A stretch of 64,000 nucleotides of DNA from Archangium violaceum. GTDB lineage: Bacteria; Myxococcota; Myxococcia; Myxococcales; Myxococcaceae. Below the pieces are notes generated by a model, which saw only the letters and a list, made by a program, of their open reading frames with translations, ran no database searches and was not told where the DNA came from. The stretch spans positions 7,918,001-7,982,000 of the forward strand of contig NZ_CP069396.1 of NCBI RefSeq assembly GCF_016887565.1, written 5' to 3'. Positions 48,321-56,850 of the stretch are shown in pieces; within the stretch, counting starts at the first letter, position 1; the number at the start of each line of letters is the position of its first letter. Both the position numbers and the translations under genes were made by a program.

Positions 48321-48708
48321 TCTGTCCCTTCCCGACTGGCCGCTTTTCAGCAGGACTTGTGCCATTCCCGCTGGCGCCGCGCCCATACCACGATTGTCGG
48401 CGGAATGACTAAGCATGCCCGCTGGGTCTGACCAGTGGGTGAGTCAGGGAAAACCGCCACATGTGGCGTTCCGCTACACTTCCCCCTCGCTCCCGCCGGA
48501 TACGGGATCTTCCGCCCGACAGAAGCGTCGGATTTCGCACTGTCGCGAAAAATGAGAATCCACCCAGGACCCTCACGCGGATGAAGCCTTCCAGGAGGGC
48601 CACCGAGTAAGCGGAGCCAAGAATCCGGCTCCCCGTCGTTGCGCCGCCTCCCGTCACAACGCCCTCGCGCCCCCTCTCCCCGAATGGGACCTGCCACGGG
48701 AGAGATGG
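48321..48708. promoter_or_regulatory. Regulatory region upstream of the lanthipeptide operon
   Basis: No gene is evident. Two strong inverted repeats are present: the perfect 14-bp palindrome CGCCACATGTGGCG at 48455-48468, and TTTCGC-(6)-GCGAAA at 48533-48550. Either could be the operator of a repressor or activator of the divergent pair. A ribosome site GGGAGAG precedes the first adaptor ATG. Confidence 0.55.
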
Positions 48709-49674
48709 ATGCAGCACAGGGTGCGGATGATGGCCGTGGGGTGGGGACTGGTTTTTCTGGGGAGCGTGGGGGGTACGGCGCCTGCTCTCGCGAACCCCGA
48801 TTCGAGTGGGAACGGCCCGACGCCCGCCCTGGTGGTGGACGGCGGAGCCGCTTCCCGCTCGGATAACGAGGAGCCCTTCCTGGGCGTCGTCATTCCCAAT
48901 GACACCGTGGAGGTGAGCTCCCGCTTCGACTCGCGGCTGGAGCAGGTGGAGGTCGAGGTGGGCCAGTCCGTGCGCGAGGGGCAGGTGCTCGCGCGGCTGG
49001 ACACGCGCTCGCTCCAGCAGGAGCTGGCCGCGGCCCGGGCCACCGTCCAGGGCTCGCGCGCCGAGGAGCACGCCGCCGCCCTCGCCCTGTCCGAGGCCCG
49101 CGCCAGGAAGCGCCGCTATTTCACCCCGCGCTCGCTGCAACTGGGCGTCTATTCGAAGGAAGAGTTGGACAAGGTCCGCTACGAGGAGAGCACCGCCGAC
49201 GCCCGCTTGCAGGCCGCCCGGGCCCAGACGCTCCAGCGCCAGGCCCAGCTGACCGAGCTGAAGCAGAACCTCGACGACGCCACGCTCGTGGCGCCCTTCG
49301 ATGGCGTGGTGGCCGCCCGGCTCGTCGGTCCCGGCACGCGACTGGCGGCGGGACAGCCCGTGCTCCGGCTGCTGGGCAGCGGCGAGTGGAAGGTGCGCTT
49401 CGCCGTCCCCGAGGACGAGGCGCGTGGGCTCCAGCCGGGCGCGTCCGTGGAGCTGAAGGTGCTCCAGCGCGGCCTCACGCTGATGGGAGCCGTGGAGAGC
49501 ATCGCGCCCGAGGTGGACGCCGCGGCCCGCCTGGTCTTCGCCACCGCCACCTTCACCCAGCCACCGCCGCCCGAGGTCTCCGCGGGCCAGGTCGTCCACG
49601 TCCGCTCGGGCCCCACGCAGCGGCTGGGCGGGAGGGGCACGGGCGGCTCGGCGCCAACGGGAGCAACGCATTGA
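48709..49674 (+). CDS. Membrane-fusion adaptor of the lanthipeptide exporter (1)
   Basis: A 321-residue periplasmic adaptor of HlyD/RND type. Signal peptide MMAVGWGLVFLGSVGGTAPALA; a biotinyl-lipoyl-like hairpin in two halves (VIPNDTVEVSSRFDSRLEQVEVEVGQSVREGQVLARLD and LVAPFDGVVAARLVGPGTRLAAGQPVLRLL) around a coiled coil (residues about 95-180), then a beta-barrel ending. It has no C-terminal domain typical of full RND adaptors. It is the first gene of the operon; the next start is 2 bp after its stop. It would link the C39 ABC exporter to the outer membrane. No outer-membrane channel is encoded nearby. Confidence 0.82.
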   Translation: MQHRVRMMAVGWGLVFLGSVGGTAPALANPDSSGNGPTPALVVDGGAASRSDNEEPFLGVVIPNDTVEVSSRFDSRLEQVEVEVGQSVREGQVLARLDTRSLQQELAAARATVQGSRAEEHAAALALSEARARKRRYFTPRSLQLGVYSKEELDKVRYEESTADARLQAARAQTLQRQAQLTELKQNLDDATLVAPFDGVVAARLVGPGTRLAAGQPVLRLLGSGEWKVRFAVPEDEARGLQPGASVELKVLQRGLTLMGAVESIAPEVDAAARLVFATATFTQPPPPEVSAGQVVHVRSGPTQRLGGRGTGGSAPTGATH

Positions 49675-49676
49675 CC

Positions 49677-50613
49677 ATGGAAGCAACCCAACGCACCCGC
49701 ATCTTCCGCGAGGAAGCCCTGCGTCACCACGAGGGCTCCCAGGACGAGGGGGACGTCCTCCGAATCTCTCCGAAGTGGACCCAGTGGACCTACTGGGTGC
49801 TGATCGCCCTGATCGTCGCCGCGGCCCTGTATTCGCTGCTCGGCACCATCCCCGAGTACGCCTCTGGCCCCGCCATGGTGAAGGTCGAGGGCCGGAGCGA
49901 GCTGACGGTCGAGGCACCGGGAATCGTCGCCTCGGTGGACGTGCGGCCCGGGCAGCGGGTGGAGGCGGGGCAGCCGCTGGTGAGCTTCCTGTCGCGGGAG
50001 GAGACATCCACGCTGGAGCGCATCGAGCGCGAGTTCGAGCTGCAGCTCGTCCGGGTGCTTCAGAACCCCGCGGACGAGTCGGCGCGCCAGGCGCTCACCT
50101 CACTGCGAGCCGAGAGGGAGCTGGCCCAGGCACGGCAGCAGGCCCGCACGCTGCGGGCCCCGCAGGCCGGGGTCGTGAGCACGCTGAAGGTGCGCAAGGG
50201 CCAGTACGTCAACCCGGGCGAGAGCGTGGTGTCCGTCACGGGTGACGAGGTGCACGTGACGCTGGTGGCGCTGCTGCCCGGCGGCTACCGGCCGAGGCTC
50301 GAGCCGGGCAAGCCGCTGCGCGTGGAGCTCAACGGCTTCAGCCACGAGTACCAGACGTTCACCATCGAGTCCGTGGGAGATCAGGTGGTCGGGCCCAACG
50401 AGGTGCGCCGCTACCTGGGGGCGGACAGTGGGGATGCCGTCCAGCTGTCGGGCCCCATGGTGGTGGTGAAGGCGAAGGTTCCCGCGACCACGTTCACCAT
50501 CAAGGGAAAGACGTTCAACTACTTCGACGGGATGCTGGCCCAGGCCGACGCCCGAGTGCGCACCGAGCGCATCCTCGTCACGCTGATTCCGGGTCTGAAG
50601 GGAGCATTGGGAC

Positions 50614-50624
<11 letters not shown>
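49677..50624 (+). CDS. Membrane-fusion adaptor of the lanthipeptide exporter (2)
   Basis: A 315-residue HlyD-type adaptor, anchored by one membrane helix (WTYWVLIALIVAAALYSLL, residues about 37-56) with a cytosolic N-terminus rather than a signal peptide. The lipoyl-like half-motifs are VEAPGIVASVDVRPGQRVEAGQPLVSFL and LRAPQAGVVSTLKVRKGQYVNPGESVVSV around a short helical hairpin. This resembles the adaptor of NHLM-type bacteriocin export systems. It overlaps the exporter gene by 11 bp. Together with adaptor 1 it suggests a double-adaptor export complex. Confidence 0.82.
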
Positions 50625-52842
<2,218 letters not shown>

Positions 52843-52886
52843 AACGTCCTCCGCGTGACATCGGATGACAGCTGACTCCTTCTGGT

Positions 52887-52915
52887 TGCCCGCGCCACAC
52901 AACCCGGCGCGGGCA
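52887..52915 (+). terminator. Hairpin upstream of the first precursor gene
   Basis: Perfect 10-bp arms TGCCCGCGCC (52887-52896) and GGCGCGGGCA (52906-52915) around a 9-base loop, with no T-run. It ends about 9 bases before the AGGAGA ribosome site, so it may act as an RNA processing or stability element rather than a terminator. Confidence 0.65.
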
Positions 52916-52932
52916 TCCCCACAGGAGAAGTC

Positions 52933-53193
52933 ATGAAGAAGGAACTGATCATCCGTGCATGGAAGGACCCGGCGTTCCGCGCGAGCCTCTCCGCCGAGGA
53001 GCGCGCTTCTCTTCCCGAGAGTCCCTCCGGGAAGTCGATGACCGAGCTCGATGAGTCCGAGCTGGATGGGATCTCCGGCGGTGGAAGACCGAGTCCCAAG
53101 TACTCGGTCGACACGTTCCGTTGTCCCGCCCCCACGTTCTTCTGCCCCCCGCCCAAGACCATCAACTCCTGCGGAATCGTCGCCTGCATCTAG
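52933..53193 (+). CDS. lanA1: Class II lanthipeptide precursor A1
   Basis: An 86-residue precursor. The leader starts MKKELIIRAWKDPAF and ends in ISGG at residues 47-50, the pattern of mersacidin/lichenicidin-type (TIGR03898-like) leaders with a double-glycine site for the C39 protease. The 36-residue core holds four Cys (64, 71, 80, 85) and six Ser/Thr (Ser54, Ser58, Thr61, Thr68, Thr76, Ser79), giving candidate rings Thr61-Cys64, Thr68-Cys71 and one or two rings in TINSCGIVACI. Two TFxC units and several Pro (CPAPT, CPPPK) are notable. AGGAGAAG precedes the ATG. Sequence is unlike lantibiotics I recall. Confidence 0.9.
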   Translation: MKKELIIRAWKDPAFRASLSAEERASLPESPSGKSMTELDESELDGISGGGRPSPKYSVDTFRCPAPTFFCPPPKTINSCGIVACI

Positions 53194-53219
53194 GCGCCCG
53201 AGCGCGGTGAGCCATCACC

Positions 53220-53262
53220 GGAACGCGGCGCCCCGATACACACCAGCCGGGCGCCGCGTTCC
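53220..53262 (+). terminator. Strong hairpin between the precursor genes
   Basis: Perfect 14-bp arms (GGAACGCGGCGCCC at 53220-53233, complement at 53249-53262) with a 15-base loop, 27 bp after the A1 stop. It lacks a long T-run, so it may be a partial terminator or stabiliser that sets the A1:A2:LanM ratio. Confidence 0.75.
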
Positions 53263-53346
53263 GCTTGTCACAGACCTCCCCCACACGCTCCACCCGGATG
53301 CCGGCGCTCGAAGACCGGCTCCCCCCCAACTCCGGAGTCACAAGAC

Positions 53347-53586
53347 ATGAAGAAGGAATTGATCATCCGCGCCTGGAAGGACCCGGCGTTCCGAGCCAGC
53401 CTCTCCGCCGAGGAGCGCGCCACCCTTCCCGAGAGCCCTTCCGGCAAGGCGATGACCGAGCTCGACGAGGGCGAGCTGCTCGCCATCATCGGTGGACGTT
53501 CCGCGGAGATGCAGCCCGCCACGGGGTGTGACGGTCCCGAGCGGCAGACGTGCGGAATCATCAACTGCTCCCTCCTCGACAGCTGA
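53347..53586 (+). CDS. lanA2: Class II lanthipeptide precursor A2
   Basis: A 79-residue precursor. Residues 1-45 are almost identical to A1 (leader differs at about six positions), ending IIGG at 47-50. The 29-residue core (after Gly50) has three Cys (61, 69, 74) and five Ser/Thr (Ser52, Thr59, Thr68, Ser75, Ser79). It is unrelated to the A1 core except for the shared C-G-I-(V/I)-x-C ending (TCGIINC here, SCGIVAC in A1). Candidate rings are Thr59-Cys61 and one around TCGIINC. GGAGTC lies upstream of the ATG. Confidence 0.9.
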   Translation: MKKELIIRAWKDPAFRASLSAEERATLPESPSGKAMTELDEGELLAIIGGRSAEMQPATGCDGPERQTCGIINCSLLDS

Positions 53587-53622
53587 CCGCGCGGCCCCCG
53601 GACATCGGCACAGGTGATACCC

Positions 53623-56600
53623 ATGCAAGTCATTGCTCCTGTCTTTCCCTGGAAGAAGGCGACATTCCTTCACGAGCGGGCCACCGCGAAGGGAGGTGCC
53701 CCCTCCGAGGGAAACGACTCGGCTCGCGAGGAGGCCGAGCGCCGCGCGGATGCCTGGCGCCAGCTCATGTCGGGAGACGACGCGACCCTCGACGAGCGGC
53801 TCAGCAGCGTGGGGCTCGACCGTCAGGCGTTCCTCCAGCTCCTCGCCCACTCGGGGGGCCAGGACGACGAGCCCGAGGACAGTGGCTCATGGGTCTTCCT
53901 CATCCAGGAGGTGATCGAGCAACGGCACGCCGGAGAGGCCCTGCCCACCTCGCTCCAGGCGCCCTCCAGCCCGGGACAGCCCGGGCTGTCGTTCTCGGGA
54001 CTGCTCCACCCGTTCCTGCGGATCGCCACCGCGAGGCTGCGGACGAGCCTGGCCGCGCTCCAGGCCCGCCACGGTCTGGAGCGCCCCATCCTGGCGCCCG
54101 AGGCCGAGGCCGCGCTGCTCGAGGGACTCGCGCGGCGGCTCCAGTTCCTGGCCACCCGGACCCTCATCCTCGAGCTCAACGTGGCCCGGATGCTCGAGCA
54201 ACTGCCCGGCGACTCGCCCCAGGAGCGCTTCCATTACTTCTCGACGCGGCACCTGGGGGAGCCGCGGGTCCTGGTGGCGCTGCTGGAGGAATACCCGGTC
54301 CTGGCCCGGCTCCTGGCCACCAGCACCGAGCGGTGGCTCGACGTGAGCCTGGAGCTCCTCCAGCGCCTCGTCGCGGACCATGAGTTGCTCGGCCAGACCT
54401 TCCTGGGGGGCCAGGACATCGGACTGCCCACCGGACTCCAGTCCGGCATCTCCGACCTGCACCGCGAGGGCCGGAGCGTGCTCCTGCTCCAGTTCAGCTC
54501 CGGTCTGAAGCTCGTCTACAAGCCGAAGTCGCTCGCGGTGGACATCCGCTTCCAGCAGCTCCTCCAGTGGATGAACGCGAAGGGCGTGCGCCATGCGCAC
54601 CGGGTGCTCACCGTGCTGGACCGTGGCTCCTACGGCTGGGTCGAGTACGTGGAGACCGCGAGCTGTGACTCGCGCGAGGCCCTCCAGCGCTTCTACTGGC
54701 GGCAGGGCAGCTCGCTGGCCCTGCTCCACACGCTGGCCGCCGTGGACTTCCACCTGGAGAACCTCATCGCCGCTGGCGAGCACCCCGTGCTCGTGGACCT
54801 GGAGGCGCTCTTCCACCAGCGGTCCTCCCAGGAGACAGGGGACTCGGCCCACCAACGTGCCTGGGCCGCGCTCGACCGTTCCATCATCTCCGTCGGCATG
54901 CTGCCCATGCTCATCTTCGGCCGGGGGGGACGCGCGGGCGTCGACATGAGCGGGTTGGGGGGCGAGGCGGGCCAGCTGTCACCCCAGGCGGTGCCCATGG
55001 TGGAGGACGCGCTCCACGACACCATGCGCGTGGTCCGCCGCCAGGGCCGCACGTCCGGCTCGAGCAACCGGCCCCAGCTCCAGGGCCAGCCGGCGGACGC
55101 CGCCGAGTACACCGAGGACATCGTCCAGGGCTTCGAGGAGACGTACCGGCTCCTCATGCGTCACCGCGAGGAGCTCGGGCCCCGGCTCCAGGACTTCGCC
55201 GACGTGGAGGTCCGCCACATCGTGCGCGCCACCCAGCGCTACGCGCTCCTCCTGCAGGAGAGCGTCCACCCCGACTTCCTGCGCGATGGCCTCGAGCGGG
55301 ACAAGGTGCTGGACAACCTCTGGGCCGAGGCCACCCTGTGGCCCTCGCTGCGGCGGCTCGTCCCCTACGAGCACGCGGACCTGCGCCTGGGCGACATCCC
55401 CATGTTCACCACGCGGCCCGGCCAGCGCCACCTGTGGAGCAGCACCGGCGAGTGCATCCGCGACTACTTCGCGCATGACAGTCTGGGCGAGGTGCGGGAG
55501 CGGCTCACGCGGTTGGATGAGAGGGATTGTGCCTGGCAGGTGTCGCTCATCCGCAAGTCGATGGTCTCCCTCGACAAGGGCCGGGGTGCCGCGCCCGTCA
55601 TCACCCGGACCGGACAGCGACCTCCCCCCGCGCCCGCCTCGCGCGAGGAGTGCCTCGCCGCCGCCATCTCCATCGCGGAGGACCTCGCGGCCAAGGCCAT
55701 CCGGGGACGCACGGACGTGTCCTGGATTGGCATGAACCTGGAGGACCTGGGGCGGTGGCGTTGGAGCCTCGCGCCTCTCGGCACGGACGTGTACGAGGGC
55801 GTCGGCGGGCTCGCCCTGTTCCTCGCGTACCTCGCCCGGGAGACCGGACGCGCGGACTTCGAGCAGCTCGCCCACGCGGCCCTGGAGCCCGTACGGGACT
55901 CCTGGCGCAACCCCGACCCGAGCGACGCGGGCGTGGGCGCCTTCGTCGGCCGGACCTCCGCCGCGTACGTGCTCGGACACCTGGCCGCCCTCTGGAACCA
56001 GCCGGAACTGCTGGACGAGGTGCGCGAGGGACTCCCGGCGCTGGAGGCGCTCATCGACACCGACACGCGGATCGATCTGCTCAGCGGCTCCGCCGGGTGC
56101 GCGCTCGTCCTGCTCGGACTGCACGCCCGGACCGGGGACTCGCGCTTCCTGGAGGCCGCCAGGCGATGCGGGGAGCGGCTCGCCGTCATGGCCCAGCCCA
56201 TGCCGGAGGGAGGCCTGGGCTGGAAGGGCGCGGCGGGAGAGCGGCCCCTGTCGGGCTTCTCCCACGGTGCGGCGGGCATCGCGTACGCGCTCCTGGAGCT
56301 GGCCGCCGCCACCGGCGACACGCGCTACCGCGAGCTCGCGCAGAAGGGGCTCGCCTACGAGCGCGCCCTCTTCGTCCCCGAGCGCGCCAACTGGCGCGAT
56401 CTGCGCGAGCCCGAGAAAGGCGCGGAGGGCATCGCCACCGGCTTCATGGTGTCGTGGTGCCATGGTGCCCCGGGCATCGCGCTCGGGAGGCTGTGCTCGC
56501 TGCGGCACCAGGATGACGTCCAGACACGCGCGGAGCTCGCCACGGCGCTCGACACGACCCTGCGCGAGGGCTTCGGCGGCAACCACTGCCTGTGTCACGG

Positions 56601-56850
56601 AGACATGGGCAACCTGGAGCCGCTGTACCTGGCGGGCGAGCGGCTCGGCGAGCCGCGATGGATCCGCGCCGCCCTGGAGCGCGCGGCCCACGTCATCCAC
56701 ACCGGACGCGAGCGCGGCTGGCTCTGCGGGCTGCCCCGGGGCACGGAGACCCCGGGGCTGCTGATGGGACTGGCCGGCATCGGCTATGGCCTGCTGCGGC
56801 TGGCGGCCCCGGAGCGCGTGCCGTCGGTGCTCTCCCTGGCGATGCCCTGA
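53623..56850 (+). CDS. lanM: Class II lanthipeptide synthetase LanM
   Basis: A 1075-residue bifunctional enzyme that phosphorylates and dehydrates Ser/Thr in the precursors and then forms thioether rings. The N-terminal 650 residues are the kinase-like dehydratase (DUF4135): LLQFSSGLKLVYKPKS, VDFHLENLIAAG, VLVDLEALFHQ. The C-terminal 380 residues are the LanC-like cyclase with zinc ligands Cys946 (SWCHGAPG), Cys991 and His992 (CLCHGDMGN). ATG at 53623 is chosen because AGGTGA precedes it; GTG 53614 is another start. Last gene of the operon, ending 1 bp before a convergent gene. Length is normal for LanM. Confidence 0.95.
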   Translation: MQVIAPVFPWKKATFLHERATAKGGAPSEGNDSAREEAERRADAWRQLMSGDDATLDERLSSVGLDRQAFLQLLAHSGGQDDEPEDSGSWVFLIQEVIEQRHAGEALPTSLQAPSSPGQPGLSFSGLLHPFLRIATARLRTSLAALQARHGLERPILAPEAEAALLEGLARRLQFLATRTLILELNVARMLEQLPGDSPQERFHYFSTRHLGEPRVLVALLEEYPVLARLLATSTERWLDVSLELLQRLVADHELLGQTFLGGQDIGLPTGLQSGISDLHREGRSVLLLQFSSGLKLVYKPKSLAVDIRFQQLLQWMNAKGVRHAHRVLTVLDRGSYGWVEYVETASCDSREALQRFYWRQGSSLALLHTLAAVDFHLENLIAAGEHPVLVDLEALFHQRSSQETGDSAHQRAWAALDRSIISVGMLPMLIFGRGGRAGVDMSGLGGEAGQLSPQAVPMVEDALHDTMRVVRRQGRTSGSSNRPQLQGQPADAAEYTEDIVQGFEETYRLLMRHREELGPRLQDFADVEVRHIVRATQRYALLLQESVHPDFLRDGLERDKVLDNLWAEATLWPSLRRLVPYEHADLRLGDIPMFTTRPGQRHLWSSTGECIRDYFAHDSLGEVRERLTRLDERDCAWQVSLIRKSMVSLDKGRGAAPVITRTGQRPPPAPASREECLAAAISIAEDLAAKAIRGRTDVSWIGMNLEDLGRWRWSLAPLGTDVYEGVGGLALFLAYLARETGRADFEQLAHAALEPVRDSWRNPDPSDAGVGAFVGRTSAAYVLGHLAALWNQPELLDEVREGLPALEALIDTDTRIDLLSGSAGCALVLLGLHARTGDSRFLEAARRCGERLAVMAQPMPEGGLGWKGAAGERPLSGFSHGAAGIAYALLELAAATGDTRYRELAQKGLAYERALFVPERANWRDLREPEKGAEGIATGFMVSWCHGAPGIALGRLCSLRHQDDVQTRAELATALDTTLREGFGGNHCLCHGDMGNLEPLYLAGERLGEPRWIRAALERAAHVIHTGRERGWLCGLPRGTETPGLLMGLAGIGYGLLRLAAPERVPSVLSLAMP

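Follow-up and report, generated by a model that had tools for sequence, protein, structure and literature searches.

Gene content of the locus

We analysed a window of 64,000 nucleotides from Archangium violaceum (contig NZ_CP069396.1, positions 7,918,001–7,982,000; window coordinates are used for the locus), which carries a class II lanthipeptide locus preceded by a bipartite, promoter-like element. The first-pass annotation had read positions 48709–56850 as two HlyD-type adaptors, a C39 peptidase-ATP-binding cassette (ABC) exporter, two precursors and one LanM in a single orientation, and the profile matches agree, all features lying on the plus strand. HlyD1 (48709–49674; TIGR01730, 5e-37; PF13437/PF16576) is a periplasmic adaptor of the RND-MFP type with an N-terminus that resembles a signal peptide. 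HlyD2 (49677–50624, ATG at 49677 and stop at 50624; PF13437, 1.1e-14; PF16576, 3.9e-13) is a membrane-anchored adaptor of an ABC exporter with a single N-terminal transmembrane helix at residues 40–58. The exporter itself (50614–52842; PF03412, 2.9e-33; TIGR03796, 617 bits) has an intact C39 Cys/His/Asp triad, Walker A, signature and Walker B motifs, in agreement with the double-adaptor exporter of the first-pass annotation, and its residues 28–730 align with PCAT-type C39 ABC structures (4ry2, 3e-113). We rejected an NHLM/NHLP export system because the TIGR03796 score of the exporter is below the equivalog cut-off of 853 bits and HlyD2 scores 37.6 against a TIGR03794 cut-off of 156. No second, paired ABC gene (ABC2) was found within the locus.

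Two precursor genes follow the exporter. A1 (52933–53193, 86 aa) has a leader ending in ISGG and the core GRPSPKYSVDTFRCPAPTFFCPPPKTINSCGIVACI, and A2 (53347–53586, 79 aa) has a leader ending in IIGG and the core RSAEMQPATGCDGPERQTCGIINCSLLDS, whose motif TGC..(T/Q)CGI..C is kept among relatives. With 71.8 and 68.8 bits, respectively, both far exceed the NCBIfam cut-off of 23.5 bits for the mersacidin/lichenicidin family TIGR03898, in line with the leader type given in the first-pass annotation. Both have the conserved leader, double-glycine (GG) site, and core Ser/Thr and Cys residues of a class II precursor.

LanM (53626–56850) scores 1020 bits with TIGR03897 (cut-off 304 bits) and matches PF13575 (DUF4135, 1.5e-128) and PF05147 (LANC_like, 6e-70). 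It is a bifunctional class II lanthionine synthetase in which a DUF4135 dehydratase and a LanC-like cyclase with zinc ligands are joined; the dehydratase motifs YKPKS, DFHxEN and DLE are intact, WCHG and LCHG supply the predicted Cys/Cys/His zinc site, and residues 122–1078 align with LicM2 (6st5, 1.4e-145), all in line with the original assignment to a one-LanM class II locus. Chance matches are excluded by the strength of the TIGR03898, TIGR03897, PF13575, PF05147 and C39 scores. Translation probably starts at ATG 53626, as relatives begin with MQ[VF]I.PVFPWKK; an alternative GTG lies four codons upstream at 53614. Residues 991–996 (about 56584–56601) read HCLCHG instead of HSLCHG, so that the ligand Cys is preceded, two positions earlier, by an additional Cys; this variant occurs in 9 of the 11 LanMs of the window LanM clade and also in the nearest outgroups of the clade.

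Precursors scattered over the genome

The genome of the strain (G000) is 13.2 Mb long and consists of one contig (C1). Profile searches above the cut-offs returned nine TIGR03898 precursors at eight places and four LanM-like genes (TIGR03897). One precursor, at 4353523, adjoins another synthetase (LanM2), and six are orphans, that is, far from every LanM: they lie at 232105, 3977311, 4274178, 6671031, 7323557 and 8952334 and are separated by 79 kb to 1.3 Mb from the nearest LanM gene. The earlier reading of two peptides made by one synthetase is thus too narrow and undercounts the family, which has these six further members of one leader class at distant sites. A Pfam scan of the 13 genes adjoining the six orphans gave no match to enzyme families of ribosomally synthesized and post-translationally modified peptides (RiPPs); six of the 13 had no match at all and the others were ordinary (di-haem cytochrome c peroxidase, short-chain dehydrogenase, Kelch, GH18, glutathione S-transferase and others).

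A tenth, precursor-like copy near position 11826240 (L010) lacks most of the leader and is cut after RAWKDPEYRR; its upstream 20 nt are the same as those of the precursor at 232090, as in a recent copy with a deletion. Of the remaining LanM-like genes, the third (L035:7339–10254, about 877338–880253) has no TIGR03898 precursor nearby. Another region (L036:4354–9686, about 3498353–3503685) combines YcaO and TfuA genes with an adjacent gene for a LanM-like dehydratase whose LanC domain is partial, a layout reminiscent of dehydrazole-type hypermodified RiPPs (PMC10676384).

Distribution among relatives

TIGR03898 precursors are present in 36 of the 96 genomes that represent the family, and 11 genomes, from three genera, encode a close relative of the window LanM (65–92% identity). 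These relatives form one clade (Shimodaira–Hasegawa-like approximate likelihood ratio test, 97). The join of this clade with cyanobacterial CCG LanMs in the same tree was set aside, given long branches, a midpoint root and one wrong-frame row. Orphans occur in 10 of the 11 genomes with the window LanM clade versus 1 of 23 other precursor-bearing genomes, two drafts being set aside (Fisher 9e-7, a value that is too small because the genomes are related and the counts not independent). In G003, also an Archangium, 12 precursors are accompanied by exactly one LanM above the cut-off, the orthologue of the window LanM; four of them lie within 9 kb of it and eight at a distance of 0.55–6.7 Mb. G004 has 14 precursors, ten of which have no adjacent LanM and share their contig with no member of the window LanM clade. 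Synteny between G000 and G004 extends to three orphan loci (L028/L110, L032/L106 and L034/L107), which were therefore inherited.

The exporter is dispersed as well. All six genomes of two other genera (g7 and g8) that have the window LanM clade also have the HlyD1-HlyD2-ABC triplet (ABC 77–79% identical), far from LanM or on a different contig; in two of these six it adjoins an A2-type precursor. Describing the locus as complete, as in the first-pass annotation, was accurate as to the parts present and too narrow as to the system, since exporter and LanM are unlinked in these six genomes.

The same comparison bears on whether A1 and A2 are synergistic alpha and beta partners of a two-component lantibiotic. 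Lichenicidin-type systems have two precursors in the neighbourhood of one LanM, and the near-identical leaders of A1 and A2 beside one LanM would fit such a pair. However, no A1 orthologue was detected beside LanM in G005, where the interval from the end of the ABC gene to LanM was searched, or in g7/g8, and the A1 core is shortened in G004, while most of these loci have kept an A2-type core and A2-type precursors occur as orphans too. The alpha peptide of two-component lantibiotics carries the lipid II-binding motif CTLTxEC, which was not seen by eye in the A1 or A2 core. We therefore regard a two-component lantibiotic as very improbable.

Leader class and selection

The stretch from AW to GG spans 42 residues in leaders of the window-LanM neighbours and of nearly all orphans, which also share a PSGxxxxEL-like segment; in most precursors of other LanMs it spans 40 residues and the segment is NPAGxxEL-like. 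Scored with leader profiles from which the tested genome had been excluded (leave-one-genome-out), all 36 orphans fitted the profile of the window-LanM-clade neighbours better, whereas 16 of 17 precursors of other LanMs fitted the other-LanM profile better. The one remaining precursor is the neighbour of a LanM that branches as a close outgroup to the window clade (58% identity). The Corallococcus-like genus g5 likewise has an outgroup LanM (54–55%); five precursors from this genus were scored apart and also lean to the first profile, by 9–12 bits.

Between orphan orthologues, leaders are 0.70–0.94 identical with ratios of nonsynonymous to synonymous substitution rates (dN/dS) of mostly 0.05–0.5, and cores are 0.36–0.79 identical. 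Leader identity equals or exceeds core identity in nearly all pairs, and core dN is above leader dN in every pair tested. From these alignments, most orphan leaders are under purifying selection while their cores diverge. Core dN/dS exceeds 1 in some pairs, which we did not accept as positive selection because the sites are too few and the alignment is poor. For comparison, dN/dS is about 0.31–0.35 for LanM and 0.13 for the exporter.

A shared upstream element

An unsupervised motif search upstream of 61 A-type precursors recovered the bipartite element CGTCACA-N14-ACTCC(A/T)TC (log-likelihood 476 versus 111–117 for shuffled sets). When scored leave-one-genome-out against the 99th percentile of random 150-mers (11.1 in the scan of the window exporter), it exceeded the threshold for 51 of the 61 adjacent and orphan precursors and for one of the 11 belonging to other LanMs (Fisher 3e-6). 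In the window, motif scanning places a CGTGACA variant upstream of A1 (52854–52883) and a further copy upstream of A2 (53266–53295); no element precedes the LanM gene itself. The exporter operon was outside the motif training set. Nevertheless, each of the 12 genomes with this operon has the element in front of HlyD1 (in G042 by direct reading), mostly 57–61 nt before the HlyD1 start, and in the window it reads CGTCACA-N14-CTCTCCCC (48652–48681; 18.9 and 16.6 bits). This held-out occurrence links exporter, adjacent precursors and orphan precursors regardless of their position.

The element has at most a layout like that of promoters of extracytoplasmic function (ECF) sigma factors, as identity with the ECF41 promoter, TGTCACA-N16-CGTC (PMC3426412), was rejected: the −35 part TGTCACA matches, but −10 and spacing do not. 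An inverted repeat of varying sequence lies between the element and the ribosome-binding site more often than chance would give, in 13 of 61 cases at p ≤ 0.05 versus none of 11 controls, exemplified by the perfect 10-bp repeat TGCCCGCGCC/GGCGCGGGCA upstream of A1 (52887–52915), which is suggestive of a hairpin, albeit a weakly supported one. Pairing of CTCC with the ribosome-binding site within an RNA element was considered and not retained, as folding z-scores are modest (means of −1.05 for orphans, −1.45 for adjacent precursors and −0.57 for controls).

Other genes stand behind the same pattern. An exact search found 35 sites in G000, and most of the 20 non-precursor sites that we checked are intergenic, about 50–80 nt before an open reading frame (ORF) with a sequence resembling a ribosome-binding site. 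The genes concerned encode a GH19 enzyme with LysM and peptidoglycan-binding domains, another peptidoglycan-binding-domain protein, a patatin-like protein, a LodA/GoxA-like cysteine tryptophylquinone oxidase and a response regulator, besides a 67-aa peptide (L182:645–848, about 3820844–3821047 of the contig) with three TTxxxxEE repeats that by eye is reminiscent of graspetide precursors. A 40-aa Gly-rich ORF, MKIKTTVRGGLLAVGPGGYGGRGCSGGGGYPIIRPPYLLA, lies directly behind the element at 3537409–3537438 on the minus strand (L179). Genera without the lanthipeptide system have the pattern too, at lower density, and a control with the reversed pattern behaves similarly in other genera; we claim no regulon size because this control is uninformative. 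The breadth of genes and genera could be taken as a sign of an RNA-level or generic promoter feature that has no relation to what the precursors do, in a system that is dispersed and not co-regulated. We consider this unlikely, as the element was met in held-out sequence before the exporter in every genome that has it and is missing in front of 10 of the 11 precursors that other LanMs have in these genomes.

A proposed one-enzyme, many-substrate system

Taken together, protein families and motifs, dispersal, leader class, leader selection and the shared element, each read from sequence, make it likely that a co-regulated class II lanthipeptide system with dispersed genes, in which one enzyme serves many substrates, has its centre at this locus. 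Because at least six more precursors with the same leader are scattered over the genome, most of them with the same promoter-like signature, a single set of LanM and exporter probably yields a whole family of distinct peptides. LanM would recognize the conserved mersacidin/lichenicidin-type leader and, guided by it, act in trans on orphan precursors, installing (methyl)lanthionine rings in many different cores. The C39-ABC exporter with its two adaptors would cut leaders after the double glycine and export the products, including those of orphans, through an outer-membrane channel presumably encoded elsewhere, and the products would act outside the cell. As the putative promoter of one sigma factor or regulator, the element would switch on adjacent precursors, distant precursors and the exporter operon together.

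Several observations weigh against this proposal. G006 lacks the window LanM clade, yet keeps one intact orphan, the exporter triplet and the element (loci L212 and L122), and G005 has a LanM of the clade without any orphan. Some orphans in G004 have Cys-free or truncated cores and may be decaying, and one G000/G004 orphan pair has a leader dN/dS of 1.2, on very few changes. The window LanM carries CHG and not the CCG motif linked to promiscuity, and the element, since it precedes other genes too, does not define lanthipeptides alone. Part of this would suit an ordinary class II cluster for two unrelated lanthipeptides, with distant precursors as duplication relics or as substrates of other LanMs: G000 has four LanM-like genes, an orphan is retained in G006, and orphans are truncated in L010 and several times in G004. 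Against this, most orphan leaders are under purifying selection across species, and most orphans retain both the shared element and a ribosome-binding site; only one LanM is present in G003, and orphan leaders fit the class of the window LanM and not that of LanM2. An ordinary cluster is therefore a distinctly unlikely explanation.

Comparison with known lanthipeptide systems

The proposed multi-substrate system resembles the mersacidin/lichenicidin family in its leader family (TIGR03898), in LanM architecture (LicM2, 6st5) and in C39 processing, and differs from these lantibiotics in its cores, its dispersed precursors and its Gram-negative host. Among myxobacterial lanthipeptides, the melittapeptins of Melittangium are reportedly class II with a mersacidin-like precursor. 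LanII-2B of Archangium violaceum, from the study of one locus, is the nearest characterised product in the open-access literature, a class II lanthipeptide with a double-glycine leader whose LanM modifies the precursor in E. coli; its core has three Cys and four Ser/Thr and forms two rings, leaving one free Cys (PMC9576775). In core composition it matches the A2 orthologue of G005 as well as the unrelated LanM2 precursor, and it may correspond to either.

A functional parallel is ProcM/SyncM of marine cyanobacteria, where one CCG LanM serves the many scattered, Nif11-family precursors of prochlorosins and synechococsins (PMC10783134, PMC10027976, PMC11251773). Both systems combine one class II LanM with many precursors of conserved leader and variable core, a large share of which stand unlinked among unrelated genes. 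The present one differs in its CHG enzyme, mersacidin/lichenicidin-type leader, 1–14 precursors per genome, shared upstream element and myxobacterial hosts. Membership in the ProcM group was rejected: the window LanM and its clade have WCHG/LCHG, with CCG only in cyanobacterial relatives, and no Nif11 family was among the locus matches at E up to 0.1, the leaders being TIGR03898. The system would therefore work like the prochlorosins without being one of them. Multi-substrate LanM systems described in open-access papers concern CCG LanMs of marine cyanobacteria; prochlorosin-like clusters have been called the sole instance to date of a LanM with high promiscuity towards diverse cores, and CHG LanMs are described as having limited promiscuity (PMC10027976).

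More tentatively, and a little short of an even call, we suggest a regulon beyond cyanobacteria that unites a CHG LanM with many substrates, dispersed precursors and an unlinked exporter, and whose promoter also drives GH19/LysM, patatin-like, LodA/GoxA-like and graspetide-like genes, as a combinatorial arsenal for predation or competition. If the one-enzyme, many-substrate system is real, cluster-based mining misses most precursors, here six of the eight with this leader class in the genome. It would add to the cyanobacterial systems a second case that is phylogenetically distant and has a CHG enzyme, so that a CCG site would not be required for such systems. The function of the cyanobacterial systems is unknown according to the papers cited above, and myxobacteria would provide culturable, predatory hosts in which function could be tested.
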